A stretch of 64,000 nucleotides of DNA from NCBI GenBank assembly GCA_944324305.1, contig CALUVV010000005.1, positions 1 through 64,000 of the forward strand, read 5' to 3'. This document shows, one piece after another, positions 4,551 through 33,710 of this stretch. Origin of the DNA: Candidatus Gastranaerophilales bacterium. GTDB taxonomy: Bacteria; Cyanobacteriota; Vampirovibrionia; Gastranaerophilales; Gastranaerophilaceae. Positions within the stretch are counted from its first letter, which is position 1. Each line of letters starts with the position of its first letter. A program made the position numbers and the translations under genes. The notes beneath the pieces are model-generated. The model worked only from the letters and a program-made list of their open reading frames with translations, had not been told where the DNA came from and did no database searches.

Positions 4551-7514
4551 ATGAAATGTCCGATTTGCAAAAAAACAATTCCTGACAATGCGCTTAAATG
4601 CCCTTATTGTAAGGCTCGTACAGGATTAATCTGTAAAAATTGCGGCACTGTAAATTCTATATTTGACTTTACCTGCAAAAAATGCGGCAAAGAAATATTA
4701 AAAGCGTGTCCGAACTGTAACGGCGTAAATTTTCCTAATGCCGAAAAATGCCGAAAATGCGGTTATTTATTCCCAACAAGCAAACCTGAGGAAGAAGACG
4801 GGCAAATAAAACTTGAATATCCCGCAAATCTTGTTTCACAACAAAGTGCAAAAAATATTCTTATTAAAGGCCTGCTTTCTAATGATAAAAAAATTTTTTC
4901 ACTAAGCGGAGAAAAAGGCATTGGAAAAAGTCTTGTGTTAAAAGCAATTATGCATGATTTAAAGCACAGAAATTTTTCATGGCTATACGGTAAATGCACT
5001 CCGATTACACAGCTGACTTCCGGAGGTCTTATTCAGGATATTTTGCTGAATATATTTAATCTGCCGAATTTCTGCTTAAATAATCTCCAGTTTAAAAAAG
5101 ATGCTTCAAAATATTTTAAAAATGAGTTTCCGCATCTCAACAGCAATGAAATTTTTGACCTTATTAACTTTCTTTATCCGCATCAGGAAGGAACGTTTGA
5201 AGAAATTGCAGCGGCAAAAAACAGAACTTTTGATTTTCTGAATAAAATTTTTGACACAATAACTCTTAACAATAAATTTGTTATAGTAATTGATAACTTT
5301 GACTTCATTGACGGTTTTTCTTATGAATTTATCAGCCGCTACATAAAAAAAGAAAATGTATGGGGAAATTTAAAATTTCTGCTTATATACAATGAGCCTA
5401 AACCTGCTAAAGGATATTTTTATTTTCCGTCAAATAAAGATGAAAATATTTATCTTGATGTCGGCATTGCTCCTCTGGAATTTAAACAGATTAATACTCT
5501 GGTTGAGCAAAAAAACAATAAAATACAAGGCTTACCGCAGTTAAGCAAATCCGAATTACTTGAAATATATAAAATAAGCCGCGGAAATCCGTCATTTATA
5601 AATCACGCACTTGATTTATGTTTTGACTGCCAGTTGAGCGGACAACAATTTGAACTTGCAACGACTTTCACAGGAGTACTTGAATATAGGCTTGCACTGC
5701 TTTCACATATTAATCCGATAGCTTACGACATTTTGCTGGGTTCTGCAATTATAGGCGATAAGATTAATATAAACCTTATTAAAGAAATTTTTGAAACAGA
5801 TGATAAAACTTTCAGAGATGTAATGATATATTTGAAAAAAATGGATTACATCACACCCGTAAATGAGCTTTATTGCGAATTCAGCTCGCTGACATTATGG
5901 GAAACAATTATAAAGACAGCCAAAAACGATATTAATTATTCAAAAATTAACAAAAAAATCTTTAATCATCTGAACGGCTTTACCCTCAATTCACACGCAA
6001 TTCTCGGGATTATTGCGCAAAATCTCAAACAGCCCGAACTTGCGCTTGATATTTGGACTAAGAATACAAGATTTGCGGCTTATGCAGGAGATTTGAACCT
6101 TTACGCAATCTCACAGAAACAATCTTTAGCACTTATAAACGAGTTTGATGAAAGTCAAACTTTAAAAATTCGTTATAATATTTCCGAACGGCTCGGAAAA
6201 CTTCTTGCAAACTCAAATCCTTCTGAAGCTATAGAATATCTGCCCGATGCAATTTCAAATGCACAGGCTGTAGGTGACAGCCCGAAAGAAATTGAACTTC
6301 TTGCATATCTTGCATCCTGCTGCAGAAAGACTGGTAATTATTTCGGTGAAGTTGAATGTGTAGATTCCGTGCTTAAAAAAGTTAAGCCCGAAGATGTCGT
6401 TGAAATTGCACTTCTCAAGACAACAAAACTTAACGCGCTTTTAAACATCGGAAATTGCGGACAAATTATAAATATGATTGACACTGAAATTATGCCTGTT
6501 CTGGACCAGTATTTCAGTAAAAAACAAAATGCCGCCGACCCGCAGTTAGGGTTTATGTATGAAACATGGCTTAAAACATATCTTGTACTTGCAAATGCTC
6601 TTGTAATGCAGGGAAATGACAGGTCTTTCGAAATATTGACAATTCTTTTTGATATCATTGACAGAAATCAAATTCAGGATGAATTGTTTATTTGCAAGTG
6701 TAAATTGACACTGGCCTTTGCAAACACAGTTAAAGGTAATTTCAAAGCTTCCGAACAGATGCTTGAAGAAGTTCTCAGATCATACCGCGAAAACGTAATG
6801 GATAATGAAACAATTTTAAGATGGAATTTCATTAACATTATAAATAACTTTTTCAGAAAACGTTATGACGGTGTTCAGGAAGATTTATTCCAGGTAGTAA
6901 CCTTTGCAAACAATAACGGTGATAACTTTACCAAGAATATTTTAAAAACTCTGCTCGGAAAAGTATTTAAAGATAATAATAATTCAAAGCAGGCAATGGA
7001 AATTTATAATGACCAGATTGCATATTTTGCTAAGGAGAAAATGGCTCTGGGAGCACTGTTAACCTGGTTTTTAATTGCGGATGCGACATTAATCACCGAA
7101 GGTCCTCAAAATGCAAGAGAAATCGCCGAACAGGCACTTGAGGTTGCTCAAAATCCGAAAATAGATAATTACTTCTTTGTAATTCTCCTAAAAATGGTTA
7201 TAGCTAAATGCTGCATAACCGTTTCGGACTTTGAAACCGCCAAATCCCATCTCGAAAGCGCAATATTAATCGCAAGAAAATTTAATATTAAAGACCTTCT
7301 ATCAAGATTATATATACTTTACGGCAAATATTTTCAGGAATTGGGTCTTATAAAGTCATCCCGCCAGCAGGAATACCTCAAAGGTGCCGAAAAAATGTAT
7401 AAGCAGGCAGAAGAATTGATTGCAAAAACAAAAAATGCTTATGTAAATTCCGATCTTAAAAAGGCTCAGAATGTTTTATCATCCTTCTGCAAGCTTAATA
7501 ATATAGAAATTTAA
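4551..7514 (+). CDS. Zinc-ribbon STAND-like ATPase with TPR-like C-terminus
   Basis: The 987-aa protein begins with two or three zinc ribbons (eight or more CxxC pairs in residues 3-75). A P-loop (GEKGIGKS) follows near residue 120, and a Walker B-type strand (FVIVIDNFDF) near 243. The remaining part, from about 480, is all-helical with TPR-like repeats. This order (sensor ribbon, NTPase, helical repeat scaffold) is that of STAND/predictor-ATPase signalling proteins. It is the last gene of the sigma factor unit. Its stop overlaps by 4 bp the convergent prepilin gene. Substrate or ligand is unknown. Confidence 0.8.
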   Translation: MKCPICKKTIPDNALKCPYCKARTGLICKNCGTVNSIFDFTCKKCGKEILKACPNCNGVNFPNAEKCRKCGYLFPTSKPEEEDGQIKLEYPANLVSQQSAKNILIKGLLSNDKKIFSLSGEKGIGKSLVLKAIMHDLKHRNFSWLYGKCTPITQLTSGGLIQDILLNIFNLPNFCLNNLQFKKDASKYFKNEFPHLNSNEIFDLINFLYPHQEGTFEEIAAAKNRTFDFLNKIFDTITLNNKFVIVIDNFDFIDGFSYEFISRYIKKENVWGNLKFLLIYNEPKPAKGYFYFPSNKDENIYLDVGIAPLEFKQINTLVEQKNNKIQGLPQLSKSELLEIYKISRGNPSFINHALDLCFDCQLSGQQFELATTFTGVLEYRLALLSHINPIAYDILLGSAIIGDKININLIKEIFETDDKTFRDVMIYLKKMDYITPVNELYCEFSSLTLWETIIKTAKNDINYSKINKKIFNHLNGFTLNSHAILGIIAQNLKQPELALDIWTKNTRFAAYAGDLNLYAISQKQSLALINEFDESQTLKIRYNISERLGKLLANSNPSEAIEYLPDAISNAQAVGDSPKEIELLAYLASCCRKTGNYFGEVECVDSVLKKVKPEDVVEIALLKTTKLNALLNIGNCGQIINMIDTEIMPVLDQYFSKKQNAADPQLGFMYETWLKTYLVLANALVMQGNDRSFEILTILFDIIDRNQIQDELFICKCKLTLAFANTVKGNFKASEQMLEEVLRSYRENVMDNETILRWNFINIINNFFRKRYDGVQEDLFQVVTFANNNGDNFTKNILKTLLGKVFKDNNNSKQAMEIYNDQIAYFAKEKMALGALLTWFLIADATLITEGPQNAREIAEQALEVAQNPKIDNYFFVILLKMVIAKCCITVSDFETAKSHLESAILIARKFNIKDLLSRLYILYGKYFQELGLIKSSRQQEYLKGAEKMYKQAEELIAKTKNAYVNSDLKKAQNVLSSFCKLNNIEI

Positions 7515-8274
7515 TAATTCATTTCCCAGCCGTCATTCAATATTTTGCCGAAACAGCCTCTAAAACGCGTACTGGATTTACACATAGAATTATATAGTCT
7601 TTCACGGGTTTCACGTGCATTGGCCGGCAAGGTGCATTCTTTCTTGATATTACAATCAGGCACAACCTCTTCTTCATCTATAGTACCGTTTTCGAAATAC
7701 GCCCAAAAGAACACATCTCTTCCGCCGATATTTGGTCCTTTCATACCATTGGTATCGACAAGAATATGGCTCCATTTAACATTATTGGAAGAATGCCCTG
7801 ACAAGGCCTCTATACACACGGAAGCACCGCTTCCGAGAACAGCACAATTAACATTGCCCCACCAATTTTTAACATTTTCTATACCGCCGCTTGAAACAGA
7901 AGCCCCGTTTAAATTTCTGTACTCACTATTTGGAATGCAGGGTGGTTCCAATTTGTCACACACGGTAACCGTCTTAAAATAAGTCTTTAAAAAATTATTT
8001 ACTTCCGTTTGGGATGTGAGTCCCGCCTCAGACAACGATACTGCATTTTTATCGGTTCTAAACTGTAAAAAAGCCTGTTGAAGTTCATTGTAAACCTTAT
8101 GAAGCTGAGTTACATAAGTCTTTTTCTGGTGATTTTGAATTAATGATGGTACAGTCATTGCGGAAACTACACCTATGATACCCAAAGTCACCAATACTTC
8201 AGCAAGAGTAAAAGCCTTGCAGGAGCCTAAAGTATGCCCCCCCCCCGAGTTACATTTCGTAATATTGTGTTCAT
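7511..8274 (-). CDS. Type IV prepilin-like protein, phase-variable (frame OFF as assembled)
   Basis: The body has the class III-type prepilin leader (KAFTLAEVLVTLGIIGVVSAM), a coiled N-helix (NHQKKTYVTQLHKVYNELQQAF), a loop DTNGMKGPNIGGRDVF that looks like a Ca-binding pseudopilin site, and ends GCFGKILNDGWEMNY. The only start with a good ribosome site (AAAGGAG, 6 nt away) is the ATG at 8274, but a run of ten G lies between it and the leader; with G10 the ATG frame stops at TAG 15 codons on. Eleven or eight G would give one continuous ORF. Without the ATG only a TTG inside the leader (8194) could start, which would lose the signal. Substrate of PilD and pilus or secretion pseudopilus is expected. 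Confidence 0.8.
8237..8246 (-). repeat. G10 homopolymer in prepilin leader
   Basis: Ten consecutive C on the plus strand, i.e. ten G in the coding sense, directly after codons for NVTR. One added G restores the frame from ATG 8274 to the FTLAEV leader. Slipped-strand mispairing is the established mechanism for such tracts. Confidence 0.95.
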
Positions 8275-10298: not shown

Positions 10299-11005
10299 TT
10301 AATAATTCATTTCCCAGTTATCATTTAAGAGTTTTCCAAAGCAGCCATGCCAGGTGGCGTTATCCGCATTACAGGTTGTATTAAATAAATTTTCTCTTGT
10401 GTCTTTATCGCCCGGTGCGGTTGTAAGCGCGTATTCATCAACTATCCCGTTATTAAATAAGCCGAGAATAAAAACATCACGTCCTGCAATGTTAGGTCCC
10501 TGCTGTCCGTTAATATCAACATCAAAAATTGCAACCCGATTGTTATCTGCTGTACCTGAACTGCTAATTCCATAACCGAATGATACCCCGCTCGCAATAG
10601 TGACAAATGAAGATTGACCGGAACCTTTACCCATATTATAGCCGGAAAGTTTTTTGTAACTTGAAGCAAGACATGGGGTATTACTGCCGCAATCATTAAC
10701 AACTTTAAAATAGGTTTTTACAAAATTATCTAATGCTTCATTTGAAGTCAGACCTGCTTCTCTGAGATTTACGGCATTTTTATCAGTCATATACTGCTGT
10801 GCCGCCTGTTGAAGTTCATTATAGAACTTATGCATTTGAGTGACATAAGTTTTCCTCTGGTGATTTTGCATCAATGTAGGTACAGTCATTGCGGAAACTA
10901 CACCTATGATACCTAAAGTAACCAATACTTCAGCAAGAGTAAAAGCCTTGCAGGAGCCTAAAGTATGCCCCCCCCCCGAGTTACATTTCGTAATGTTTTT
11001 CTCAT
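10299..11005 (-). CDS. Type IV prepilin-like protein, phase-variable (frame OFF as assembled)
   Basis: This close paralogue of the 27.3-kb prepilin shows KAFTLAEVLVTLGIIGVV, the loop DINGQQGPNIAGRDVF and the C-terminus GCFGKLLNDNWEMNY. The ATG at 11005 has a perfect site (AAAGGAG, 6 nt). As at 8.2 kb, a G10 run (10968-10977) puts this ATG out of frame: it stops after about 15 codons at TAG. G11 or G8 would encode a leader of about 22 residues before Phe+1. The downstream TTG at 10925 lies inside the hydrophobic leader and is not a credible start. Pilus, pseudopilus or competence role is inferred from family. Confidence 0.8.
10968..10977 (-). repeat. G10 homopolymer in prepilin leader
   Basis: Same position and length as the tract at 8237-8246. 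The flanking 80 bp (from GTAACTC to past the FTLAEV codons) is nearly identical in the two genes. Confidence 0.95.
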
Positions 11006-21323: not shown

Positions 21324-21352
21324 AAAAAGGCCGGTTAAAAAACCGGTCTTTT
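21324..21352. terminator. Bidirectional terminator
   Basis: AAAAAGGCCGGTT and AACCGGTCTTTT arms with a short A loop, between the tail-fibre pair and the convergent tagged gene. Confidence 0.85.
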
Positions 21353-21869
21353 ATTGATTAAAATATTTTTCCATAATCCTTTGGATAACTTTATTAATTT
21401 CTGCTGCGCCCTTCTTAACTTTCTCAGGCATATGAAACTGTGTAGACGTTAAATCATCAAATTCCTTATCCATTAAAAGTGCAGTATTAAAAGCTTTAGA
21501 ATTCATATACTTTTCATCACAAATGAATTCTGATTTTTCTTTTTTTATAATCTTTCTTGTTAATCTTGCCAATTCCGTAAACATAGGAAGTGTTTCATCT
21601 GTAACTTCCAATAAATTATTATTAATTGCAATCGCATCTTCAGAAGGTATAGAGTAAGTATTTATATTTAAAAAATTATCCTGAACAGGGTTTGTATACC
21701 ACCTTTTAGCCAAATTGCTTTTTTTAAAAGCCTTTCTGAATTTGTGCAAATCCCGTCCTGAAAGTTCAACATTAAGCCAGCGCTCTTTTGTAATTACATC
21801 ATTTAAATCACGCGCCTTATCAAGACAGTAGCTCATATTCTTTACACCTGTAAAGGAAATTTTATCCAT
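21351..21869 (-). CDS. Tagged hypothetical protein (ISFTG), paralogue of next gene
   Basis: The 172-aa protein starts MDKISFTGVKNMSYCLDKA and is a paralogue of the neighbour at 21890-22444: both share LSGRDLHKFRKAFKK / FNGKDLTEFRNVIKK, NNNLLEVTDETLPMF / NNELLEVNDKNLPVF and a C-terminal VNDFIQNIMNRYF-like end. No membrane helix or known domain is seen. Ribosome site AGGT 9 nt before ATG. Function unknown. Confidence 0.75.
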   Translation of the reverse strand: MDKISFTGVKNMSYCLDKARDLNDVITKERWLNVELSGRDLHKFRKAFKKSNLAKRWYTNPVQDNFLNINTYSIPSEDAIAINNNLLEVTDETLPMFTELARLTRKIIKKEKSEFICDEKYMNSKAFNTALLMDKEFDDLTSTQFHMPEKVKKGAAEINKVIQRIMEKYFNQ

Positions 21870-21889: not shown

Positions 21890-22444
21890 TTATTCAAAAT
21901 ATCTGTTCATTATATTTTGTATAAAGTCGTTAACCTGCTGTGCCGAAGCTTTAACTTTATCCTTTTCAAAAAACTGACTTATAAAATTTAATCTGCTTAC
22001 GTTTGACGGAAGCTTGTCAGAAATCCTTGCACCATATATCAGAGCTTCGTCTGCAACATAATCCCTGTAATCATTGTCAACAATCATATCTTTATCATGT
22101 ATTGAACTTATTTTTCTTGTCAGTTTTGATATATAAGAAAAAACAGGTAAATTCTTATCGTTTACCTCGAGAAGCTCGTTGTTAACAAACACTCCGTCTT
22201 CAAAACGCCCCCCCCCCGAAACACACTCAATATTAAGTATTTCCGAAGAAATTTCATTATTGAATTTTGAAGGGGTGTCAGTAACTTTTTTTATCACATT
22301 ACGAAATTCCGTTAAATCTTTTCCGTTAAAATCATCTCTCAAAACCATTGAAAGACTTTTTGAAACAGTCGGTGCTTGTCTTGAAAATTCTGCCCAGGCA
22401 ATATTTCTAATTCCTGTAAAACTTACGTTATTAATCTTATCCAT
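21890..22444 (-). CDS. Tagged hypothetical protein (VSFTG) with in-frame G10 tract
   Basis: Paralogue of the downstream gene, 184 aa from ATG 22444 (MDKINNVSFTG; ATG 22453 would add three residues). Unlike its paralogue it carries an in-frame run of ten G (codons for SGGGR) in a loop region at about residue 78, where the sister protein has SIPSED. As assembled it is ON; a one-base slip would truncate it shortly after. Upstream there is no good ribosome site. Confidence 0.7.
   Translation of the reverse strand: MDKINNVSFTGIRNIAWAEFSRQAPTVSKSLSMVLRDDFNGKDLTEFRNVIKKVTDTPSKFNNEISSEILNIECVSGGGRFEDGVFVNNELLEVNDKNLPVFSYISKLTRKISSIHDKDMIVDNDYRDYVADEALIYGARISDKLPSNVSRLNFISQFFEKDKVKASAQQVNDFIQNIMNRYFE
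22208..22217 (-). repeat. G10 homopolymer, in frame
   Basis: TCG followed by nine G codons-worth, coding S-G-G-G-R. The 15-bp block TCG-G9-CGT is identical to that in the prepilin leader at 28.0 kb, though the reading frame use differs. Confidence 0.9.
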
Positions 22445-22524
22445 AGCAATCATAAAACCCGTAAAAAAAATTTTTGCGTGTGATATAATTATTTTACAGA
22501 ATTTAATAATTGGAGAAAAAGATT

Positions 22525-24874: not shown

Positions 24875-25534
24875 ATGATTAAAAACTTTATTTACACAAA
24901 CAGTACAAAACCGGGCTTCACACTTGCGGAAGTTTTGATAACTGTGGGCATAATAGGCGTTGTTGCTGCGCTAACAATGCCAGTATTAGTAGGTAATTAC
25001 CAGAAAAAACAAACTGTAACAAAATTAAAAAGAGCTTTTTCTGTTCTTTCGCAGGCTGTCCTAATGTCTGAACTTGATAATGGAAGTACGGAGTTTTGGA
25101 ATTATAATCTTGAAGCAAAAGAATTTTATGATATATATCTGAAAAAATACTTAATTACTACAGAAGACGTTCAATTTTCAGAAATAAGAAAAGTTGTAAC
25201 ATACAGATACTTAAATAATGTCGAGGCTGAGGGAGCCATAGGAAATAACAATTCATACGCTATTAAATTAAACGACGGCACATTTGTTATCATTGACGGC
25301 TGGTTCGACGCAATTGAAGGCAATCATCGAAATATTATATTTGATATAAACGGTCTTGCGAAACCAAATAAAATAGGCAGGGACGTTTTTTATTTTCGAC
25401 TATACAAAAAAAAGGGACTTATAGGTTACGACGAAAGCGGAGACCAGGGTTGTGAAAGAAATGCATCAGGATATAGCTGTAGTCAAAAAATAATGGAAGA
25501 CGGCTGGGAGATTAAAGATGATTACCCCTGGTAA
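24875..25534 (+). CDS. Type IV prepilin-like protein, XRE-controlled
   Basis: The 219-aa protein has leader KPGFTLAEVLITVGIIGVVAALTMP (cleavage after PG, Phe+1 and Glu+5 present), a helix with QKKQTVTKLKRAF, the Asn-Gly loop DINGLAKPNKIGRDVFYFRLY and the end CSQKIMEDGWEIKDDYPW. No G tract in the leader. The divergent XRE gene and the promoter palindrome suggest on/off control by a repressor instead of slippage. Confidence 0.88.
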   Translation: MIKNFIYTNSTKPGFTLAEVLITVGIIGVVAALTMPVLVGNYQKKQTVTKLKRAFSVLSQAVLMSELDNGSTEFWNYNLEAKEFYDIYLKKYLITTEDVQFSEIRKVVTYRYLNNVEAEGAIGNNNSYAIKLNDGTFVIIDGWFDAIEGNHRNIIFDINGLAKPNKIGRDVFYFRLYKKKGLIGYDESGDQGCERNASGYSCSQKIMEDGWEIKDDYPW

Positions 25535-27328: not shown

Positions 27329-28038
27329 TTAATAGTTCATTTCAAAATTGTCATTTAAAAGTTTGCCGAAGCAGCCTGTCCAAGAGCCGTTATCTGAAGT
27401 ACAATTAGCAGTAAACAAATTTTCTCTTGTATCCTTATCACCCGGGGCGGTTGCAAGCTCGTATTCATCCACTATTCCGTTATTGAACAAGCCCAGTATA
27501 AATACGTCACGTCCTGCAATATTAGGACCTTGCGGTCCGTTTATATCTACATCAAAAATTGCAATCCTGTTGTTATCTGCGATACCGGTGTTTGTAATGC
27601 CGAAACCGAACGATGCTCCGCTTGCAATAGTAACATTCAATTGTTGTCCTGTACCTTTCCCGAGATCAGTCCCTGATATCTTTCTGTAATTTGCGGCAAA
27701 GCAGGGCTGCTGAGAAGCTCCGCAATCATTAACAACTTTAAAATATGTTTTTACAAAATTATCTAACGCTTCATTTGAAGTCAGACCTGCTTCTCTTAGA
27801 TTTACGGCATTTTTATCAGTCATATACTGCTGTGCTGCCTGTTGAAGCTCATTATAAACTTTATGAATTTGCGTCACATACGTCTTTTTTTGATGATTTT
27901 GCATCAAAGTAGGTACGGTCATTGCGGAAACTACACCAATTATACCTAGAGTAACAAGAACCTCAGCAAGAGTAAAAGCTTTGCAGGAGCCTAAAGTACG
28001 CCCCCCCCCCGAGTTACATAACTTAATAAATCTTTCAT
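27329..28038 (-). CDS. Type IV prepilin-like protein, phase-variable (frame OFF from true ATG)
   Basis: Close paralogue of the 10.3-kb prepilin (same AGLTSNEALDNFVKTYFKVVND, DINGPQGPNIAGRDVF and GCFGKLLNDNFEMNY). The ATG at 28038 has AAGGAG at ideal distance but with G10 (28001-28010) it ends at TAG after 15 codons. A GTG at 28045 is in frame with the body, but it overlaps the ribosome site itself, so it can hardly start. G11 or G8 would put the ATG in frame. Same logic as the other two tracts. Confidence 0.8.
28001..28010 (-). repeat. G10 homopolymer in prepilin leader
   Basis: Third tract of exactly ten G at the same codon position in a prepilin leader (after GTAACTC, before CGTACTTTAGG). 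Confidence 0.95.
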
Positions 28039-28101
28039 AAAACACTCCTTTTATTCTTTTTACAATATTATTTTAACATTGTTTCCAAACTTTTACAATA
28101 T

Positions 28102-33058: not shown

Positions 33059-33089
33059 TAATAACAACATATTGATAGAAGGAGCATAT

Positions 33090-33710
33090 ATGAATTTTAG
33101 AGCTTTTACATTAGCTGAAACATTAATTACTATTGGTATAATTGGAATTATTGCCGCCCTGACATTACCGTCTTTAATTGAAAAGCATCAAAAAAAAGTT
33201 ACAGTGACAAGACTTAAGGCTTTTAATTCAATAATGGCACAAGCGTTCCAGACTGCAAAATTAGAGTATGGAGATTGGGAAAATTGGGATAACAACAACT
33301 TTGGAGAAAGCAGCTCTGATAAAGGAGACGGCAAGCAACAATTATTATGGCTTGAAAAATATTTATTTCCGAACATTAAACACATTGATGCATACTCTAA
33401 AGGCAAATACGCTGTAGTAGCTTTGTCAAACGGTTCCGGTTTCTCAACATATAACAGTCTTTACTTTTTTTGTGTGAAATATTCTGATTGTAAAAAGGTT
33501 ATGGAAGATTATGATACTCGTTCAAGATTTATTTTTCAATTTTCATCCGTAAACGGCTTTGAGCCTTATAACTGCGGCTGGAAAGGAACAAGAGAAGAAC
33601 TGTTTACAACTAATTCATGCAGACATTTGTGTTCCAAAACGAGCAGCGGCATGTGTGCAAAATTAATACAGTATGACGGATGGGAAATTAGAGATGATTA
33701 TCCATGGTAA
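33090..33710 (+). CDS. Type IV prepilin-like protein, XRE-controlled
   Basis: 206 aa from ATG 33090 (MNFRAFTLAETLITIGIIG), with site AGAAGGAG; the TTG start further up is not needed. Shares the EKHQKKVTVTRLKAFNSIM helix and C-terminal DGWEIRDDYPW with the prepilin at 24875. No G tract. Its promoter is overlapped by a symmetric operator next to an XRE gene. Confidence 0.88.
   Translation: MNFRAFTLAETLITIGIIGIIAALTLPSLIEKHQKKVTVTRLKAFNSIMAQAFQTAKLEYGDWENWDNNNFGESSSDKGDGKQQLLWLEKYLFPNIKHIDAYSKGKYAVVALSNGSGFSTYNSLYFFCVKYSDCKKVMEDYDTRSRFIFQFSSVNGFEPYNCGWKGTREELFTTNSCRHLCSKTSSGMCAKLIQYDGWEIRDDYPW

Follow-up and report, generated by a model that had tools for sequence, protein, structure and literature searches.

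A ten-G tract gates the reading frame of a type IV prepilin gene in a Gastranaerophilales bacterium and recurs throughout its genus

We analysed a window of 64,000 nucleotides (positions 1 to 64,000 of contig CALUVV010000005.1, assembly GCA_944324305.1) from a Candidatus Gastranaerophilales bacterium, in which a run of ten G (G10) on the minus strand separates the start codon of a type IV prepilin gene from the body of its coding sequence. The gene comprises the following features:

28001..28010, minus strand: G10 tract flanked by C on both sides (C-G10-C motif), frame gate of the prepilin gene
27989..28000, minus strand: 3′ flank of the motif, CGTACTTTAGGC, containing the TAG that closes the G10 frame two codons past the tract
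28036..28038, minus strand: ATG start preceded by the Shine-Dalgarno AAGGAG; at ten G its frame differs from that of the body
28043..28045, minus strand: GTG in frame with the body, inside the Shine-Dalgarno, an unlikely start
27329..28000, minus strand: type IV prepilin body of 223 codons, PF07963 N_methyl, FTLAEVLVTLGIIGVV

The ATG at 28038 is the only start of this gene with a usable ribosome site; AAAAGGAGTGTTTT lies upstream of it, with AAGGAG at a normal distance. When ten G are read from this ATG, translation yields MKDLLSYVTRGGGVL, a peptide of 15 amino acids. With 11 G the same reading gives a prepilin of 236 amino acids and with 8 G one of 235 amino acids; 9 or 12 G lead to an early stop as well. 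This bears out the original prediction that the tract acts as a frame gate in the prepilin leader, and, as in a contingency locus, the homopolymer lies near the 5′ end of the coding region and a change in its length shifts the frame. The body behind the tract starts RTLGSCKAFTLAEVLVTLGIIGVV and matches PF07963 above the cut-off. Its N-terminal methylation motif has F at +1 and E at +5 (FTLAEVL). Position −1 of the cleavage site is Ala in this prepilin instead of Gly (SCKAFTLAE), and Gly is present there in many of its paralogs.

It was also considered whether the GTG at 28045 is the real start, in which case the gene would simply be intact and VFYERFIKLCNSGGGR would be expected. This GTG is indeed in frame with the body (238 amino acids), but it lies within AAGGAGTG and is directly abutted by AAGGA, which leaves no room for a ribosome site of its own. 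Moreover, no comparable start exists at the sister loci (8237 and 10968) or in any ten-base prepilin of the genome sample described below. We regard initiation at the GTG as highly improbable. The GTG would, as had been predicted, mislead a gene caller, and nearly all gated prepilin genes will be missed or mis-started by such programs.

The same prediction held that three prepilin loci of the window are all exactly G10 and OFF, and the tracts starting at 8237, 10968 and 28001 are all ten bases long and out of frame. It did not mention a fourth G10 run at 22208-22217. In total, the window contains eight nine-G matches, which correspond to four G10 tracts, against 0.04 expected from shuffles, and all four runs are on the minus strand (8237-8246, 10968-10977, 22208-22217 and 28001-28010).

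The 2.20-Mb genome (16 contigs) harbours 179 tracts of at least 8 G, of which 169 are exactly ten. About 750 kb of it, taken from contigs C1, C3 (to 208,700) and C5 (to 144,000) and amounting to about one third of the genome, was sampled base by base. Runs of five, six, eight and ten G occurred 137, 7, 2 and 78 times in this sample, respectively; runs of seven, of nine or of more than ten G were absent from it. A motif search of the sample, which would miss strongly decayed copies, found 81 prepilin-type genes; 18 of them lack a tract and the other 63 have one (47 G10, 15 C10 and one G8). An in-frame start with a ribosome site ahead of the tract is lacking in all 62 ten-base prepilins, each of which needs a shift of +1. 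The single G8 prepilin is in frame and does have such a start. Furthermore, exactly +1 is needed in 68 of 71 readings that join a tract and a long open reading frame (ORF) to an ATG with a ribosome site (48 G-type and 20 C-type), a few loci being counted here from two candidate ATGs. The need for +1 is constant although the distance from the ATG to the tract takes many values, and a stop falls directly after the tract. The genome has six G11 tracts: four in-frame ones, one that is out of frame and has an altered 3′ flank, and one for which no start could be assigned.

Similar tracts were found throughout the genus. In 32 genomes, mostly metagenome-assembled and one per species, 2,010 tracts of at least 8 G include 1,563 of exactly G10, 145 of exactly G9 and 145 of exactly G11. 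Most C-flanked prepilin-type loci of the other species are shifted by two bases at G9, by one at G10 and by none at G11; this makes eleven the design length and ten the usual one. The gate at 28001-28010 belongs to a system that spans the genus and numbers about 170 copies per genome; the original prediction was based on three of these loci, from which strand polarity, flanking motif and design length could not be seen. One species, G002 (L096-L124), departs from this pattern and resembles an ordinary phase-variable genome, with tracts of 8-15 G in various genes and mostly G12-G13 in its prepilins. Loss of mismatch repair was rejected as the cause of this spread, since MutS is present there and nearly everywhere. 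Another genome, G029, has about 100 prepilin matches, hardly any G-tracts and no exact G10, and offers a natural contrast for the role of the tract.

All tract Gs within each segment of the sample lie on one strand. Raw GC skew was rejected as a marker of the leading strand because it is too weak and follows gene direction, and the strand was instead assigned from the T/A skew at fourfold-degenerate sites, averaged over genes of both directions. By this assignment, which comes from composition and not from a mapped origin, the G-run is on the leading strand in 78 of the 78 sampled G10 tracts, regardless of gene direction, as would be expected of KOPS- or Chi-like motifs. In all nine segments that bear tracts, the sign of the skew fits a leading-strand G-run and changes along with the orientation of the tracts. 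Both reverse near 130 kb on C3, where replication forks would meet, and the region at about 123-163 kb of this contig (G000, L057-L059) is a probable replication terminus. The same strand rule is obeyed by 13 non-pilin sites. As the genes run in both directions, some mRNAs carry G10 and others C10. The polarity points to a property that matters during DNA replication.

Could a general mutational bias build such tracts? The GnT hotspots, at which T changes to G after leading-strand G-runs, are strongest on the leading strand (PMC12344412), and two non-pilin tracts arose without indels (see below). However, shorter runs have no leading-strand bias (65:72 for G5 and 2:5 for G6), lengths of 7 and 9 are absent in the sample, and the changes at one of the two non-pilin sites, in a glycosyltransferase gene, are not T to G. 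This explanation appears extremely unlikely to us.

The sequence around the tract is also conserved. C is found on both sides in 77 of 77 G10 tracts with readable flanks, and a degenerate consensus close to C-R-N-H-Y-Y-T-W-A-R-G-C lies 3′ of the run. A weight matrix built from the 3′ flanks of prepilin tracts scored 20 non-pilin sites far above random genomic positions (Mann-Whitney p about 1e-9), which argues for a sequence preference at the DNA level beyond the G-run itself. At least nine non-pilin genes of this genome hold C-G10-C or its complement in frame at ten. They include a family 2 glycosyltransferase, a PMT-like mannosyltransferase, a matrixin-type peptidase, the ORF of 187 amino acids around the fourth tract of the window and ORFs of 1043, 588, 405, 372 and 166 codons. 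Across species, the tract site of the glycosyltransferase aligns without gaps and reads (C/T)-G10-CAG in four species, TCGGGAGGGGGGCAG in one and sequences like TCTGGCGGTGAGCAG in the others. In the peptidase gene, the PPP encoded at the tract is matched, again with no gap, by QPPA or PLPK. The motif therefore arose at these two sites by substitution or overwriting and not by insertion, and insertion of a mobile element was rejected on the same grounds. Writing of the patch by a reverse transcriptase was rejected as well: this enzyme is present in 13 of the 32 genomes with no relation to tract number, and most tract-rich genomes lack it. A viral origin was rejected because the extended motif had no match in viral contigs. 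Many tracts, in genes of both directions, are immediately preceded on the 5′ side by a second recurring DNA phrase, approximately TGTCTACGCACGTA or TGTCTACCTGCG; sites at C1:99389, C1:173187, C3:30102 and C3:185910 of this genome are among them.

The in-frame genes bear on whether a true G11 was called as G10 by sequencing or assembly error, one form of which, collapsed reads, had been offered in the original prediction. All gated prepilins would then be intact, and G-tract lengths in databases can be wrong (PMC9187656). If the true length were eleven, however, those non-pilin genes, which read through in frame only at ten, would all be broken. In addition, the same assemblies do contain tracts called as G11 or longer, and there is agreement among several assemblies made independently, including ones with SPAdes-style (G031, a Gastranaerophilales bin) and MEGAHIT-style contig names. 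A miscall is very improbable, and the suggestion of collapsed reads did not hold up.

KOPS and Chi are short, G-rich polar motifs of the leading strand that occur widely and without ties to a single gene family. C-G10-C could likewise be primarily a polar DNA signal, for a translocase, a recombination system or a DNA-binding or nicking factor, with the prepilin frame being secondary or exploiting the fixed length. The exact length, the invariant C on both sides, the absolute strand polarity, the 3′ flank common to unrelated genes and the indel-free origin in two unrelated genes would all fit such a signal. In contrast to KOPS and Chi, the copies are not spread independently of gene family: most of them, 63 tracts in the sample, are at prepilins, clustered at the leaders and strictly polar. 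About three quarters of the prepilins (63/81) carry a tract, which suggests that its role there matters. Moreover, no recognising factor was found, and the reverse transcriptase does not track the tract. We consider it unlikely that the element is primarily such a signal.

The reading that we favour, at about an even chance, is phase variation in which G10 is OFF and G11 is ON, acting on a replication-polarised motif that is held near ten. At G10, a ribosome starting from the ATG at 28038 would meet the TAG two codons past the tract and no pilin would be made; at G11 (or G8), leader and body would be joined. The switch would thus act at the DNA level, with G10 as the resting OFF state and rare one-base replication slippage to G11 turning a gene ON, so that each cell may express few prepilins out of a large gated repertoire. 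Unlike an ordinary microsatellite, the tract forms part of a motif, C-G10-C with its 3′ flank, that always has the G on the leading strand, and a replication-linked process or constraint would keep the tract near ten. We infer the switching in live populations, the production of pilin by G11 cells and a dedicated length-setting factor or mechanism.

Classical slippage between an OFF G10 and an ON G11 fits the strand dependence, the in-frame minority and a bifidobacterial precedent. ON alleles do exist in this genome, where four G11 loci and one G8 locus are in frame. As expected of contingency loci, tract length at the same locus differs between related genomes: some orthologous tracts differ (10/11, 10/9 and 8/10) in a comparison with 'Fusobacterium sp. 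CAG:439' (G004), which has about 88-90% nucleotide identity around the tracts. The 8/10 pair, formed by the orthologous prepilin loci L175:374 (G10) and C1:170823 of our genome (G8), is 99% identical over 1,082 bp, and the neighbouring loci are about 90% identical; this locus is likely to reflect a recent transfer or conversion.

The precedent comes from the sortase-dependent pili of Bifidobacterium breve, which are switched by replication slippage at a G-tract (PMC9187656). There, too, in a gut commensal, the tract splits a pilus gene into a short upstream ORF that bears the start and an out-of-frame body, the annotated length is OFF and a one-base change turns the gene ON, with tracts of about 9-12 G. 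The two systems also differ. B. breve has one or two such loci per genome, its pili are of the sortase (LPXTG) type and a change of −1 is needed (PMC9187656), whereas here we find dozens of type IV prepilin loci with exact G10, a conserved flank, replication polarity and a need for +1. In Campylobacter, as analysed with PhasomeIt, there are likewise many intragenic poly-G tracts of about 9-10 per genome (PMC6321876). Unlike there, many genes here have C-runs on the coding strand, as the tract follows replication. A literature search on phase variation in Gastranaerophilales found nothing.

Several results weigh against a free switch. A freely slipping tract should vary in length, with about one third of the loci in frame, and the reading is weakened because no such broad spread was found: 94% of the tracts of at least 8 G in this genome are exactly ten, the sampled tracts include 78 of exactly ten and none of 9 or 11, and 0 of the 62 ten-base prepilins are in frame. 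In Campylobacter, by comparison, 53% of poly-G/C tracts are G9 and 26% G10, and ON fractions in isolate sets are near neutral drift (PMC6321876); here no G10 prepilin is ON. About two thirds of the clear orthologous pairs with G004 are G10/G10. Finally, the gated bodies are not decayed. For bodies that are OFF in both species, dN/dS is 0.05-0.27, as compared to 0.10 for the single tract-free pair, which indicates that gated bodies are under purifying selection and that the gated genes are therefore used; routine expression fits these values equally well. Among the three options originally put forward, a population that is mostly OFF fits best, with a minority of in-frame G11 or G8 alleles.

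The remaining option, slippage of RNA polymerase, belongs to a wider rival reading, recoding at a fixed G10, by which such slippage (+1) or −1 ribosomal frameshifting on GGG/CCC codons would at all times yield a fraction of full-length prepilin. The near-constant length, the near-universal need for +1, the intact bodies with dN/dS like that of the tract-free pair and the G10 kept at most orthologous loci all favour it, and so does the stop directly after the tract, which is usual at recoding sites. As expected of recoding, the shift needed is constant, and selection acts on the body even when it is out of frame. Programmed transcriptional slippage, known from bacterial insertion sequence (IS) elements (PMC1088944) and reviewed in PMC5009743, similarly combines a fixed DNA homopolymer with a product that needs a shifted frame. 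However, the survey in bacteria dealt with A/T runs, and such slippage would not be expected to show replication polarity. A mechanism at the RNA level has no reason to follow the replication strand as these tracts do, their mRNAs carrying either G10 or C10. In addition, some alleles are in frame in the DNA itself, as G11 or G8, and the non-pilin genes with an in-frame tract would suffer from slippage. Recoding at a fixed G10 would account for constancy and selection, replication polarity would be left without explanation, and we take this reading as a serious rival, though a somewhat unlikely one.

A length-clamped DNA motif that is exploited for switching would explain constancy, selection and polarity together. 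In this more specific form of the phase-variation reading, which we put forward tentatively and as falling short of an even chance, C-G10-C with its 3′ flank would be a replication-polarised element that is recognised by a factor and clamped at ten. Prepilins would be fixed one base off and turned ON when the tract is miscopied to eleven, giving antigenic variation across the repertoire. No length-clamping factor was identified: most tract-rich genomes have no reverse transcriptase, and MutS occurs nearly everywhere. The gated prepilins would rank with the largest repertoires of gated pilins known, and they come from an uncultured gut lineage whose surface biology has hardly been studied. They also depart from what is usual for phase-variable homopolymers, in that dozens of genes share one length, one strand and the same frame offset. 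Either homopolymer length is set in some way as the DNA replicates, or poly-G recoding is used genome-wide.

The other tracts of the window and the genes that hold them are as follows:

8237..8246, minus strand: C-G10-C tract of a second prepilin, out of frame, with +1 needed
7511..8236, minus strand: prepilin body behind the 8237 tract, PF07963
10968..10977, minus strand: C-G10-C tract of a third prepilin, out of frame, with +1 needed
10299..10967, minus strand: prepilin body behind the 10968 tract, PF07963
22208..22217, minus strand: fourth C-G10-C tract, in frame within a non-pilin ORF (IECVSGGGRFEDG)
21890..22453, minus strand: ORF of 187 amino acids with the in-frame G10, no assigned function

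The 187-amino-acid ORF had no Pfam match, and a similar ORF without a tract adjoins it at 21351-21869. In addition, the window contains two prepilin-type genes without any G-tract, at 24875-25534 and 33072-33710. The prepilin repertoire is therefore partly gated and partly ungated.
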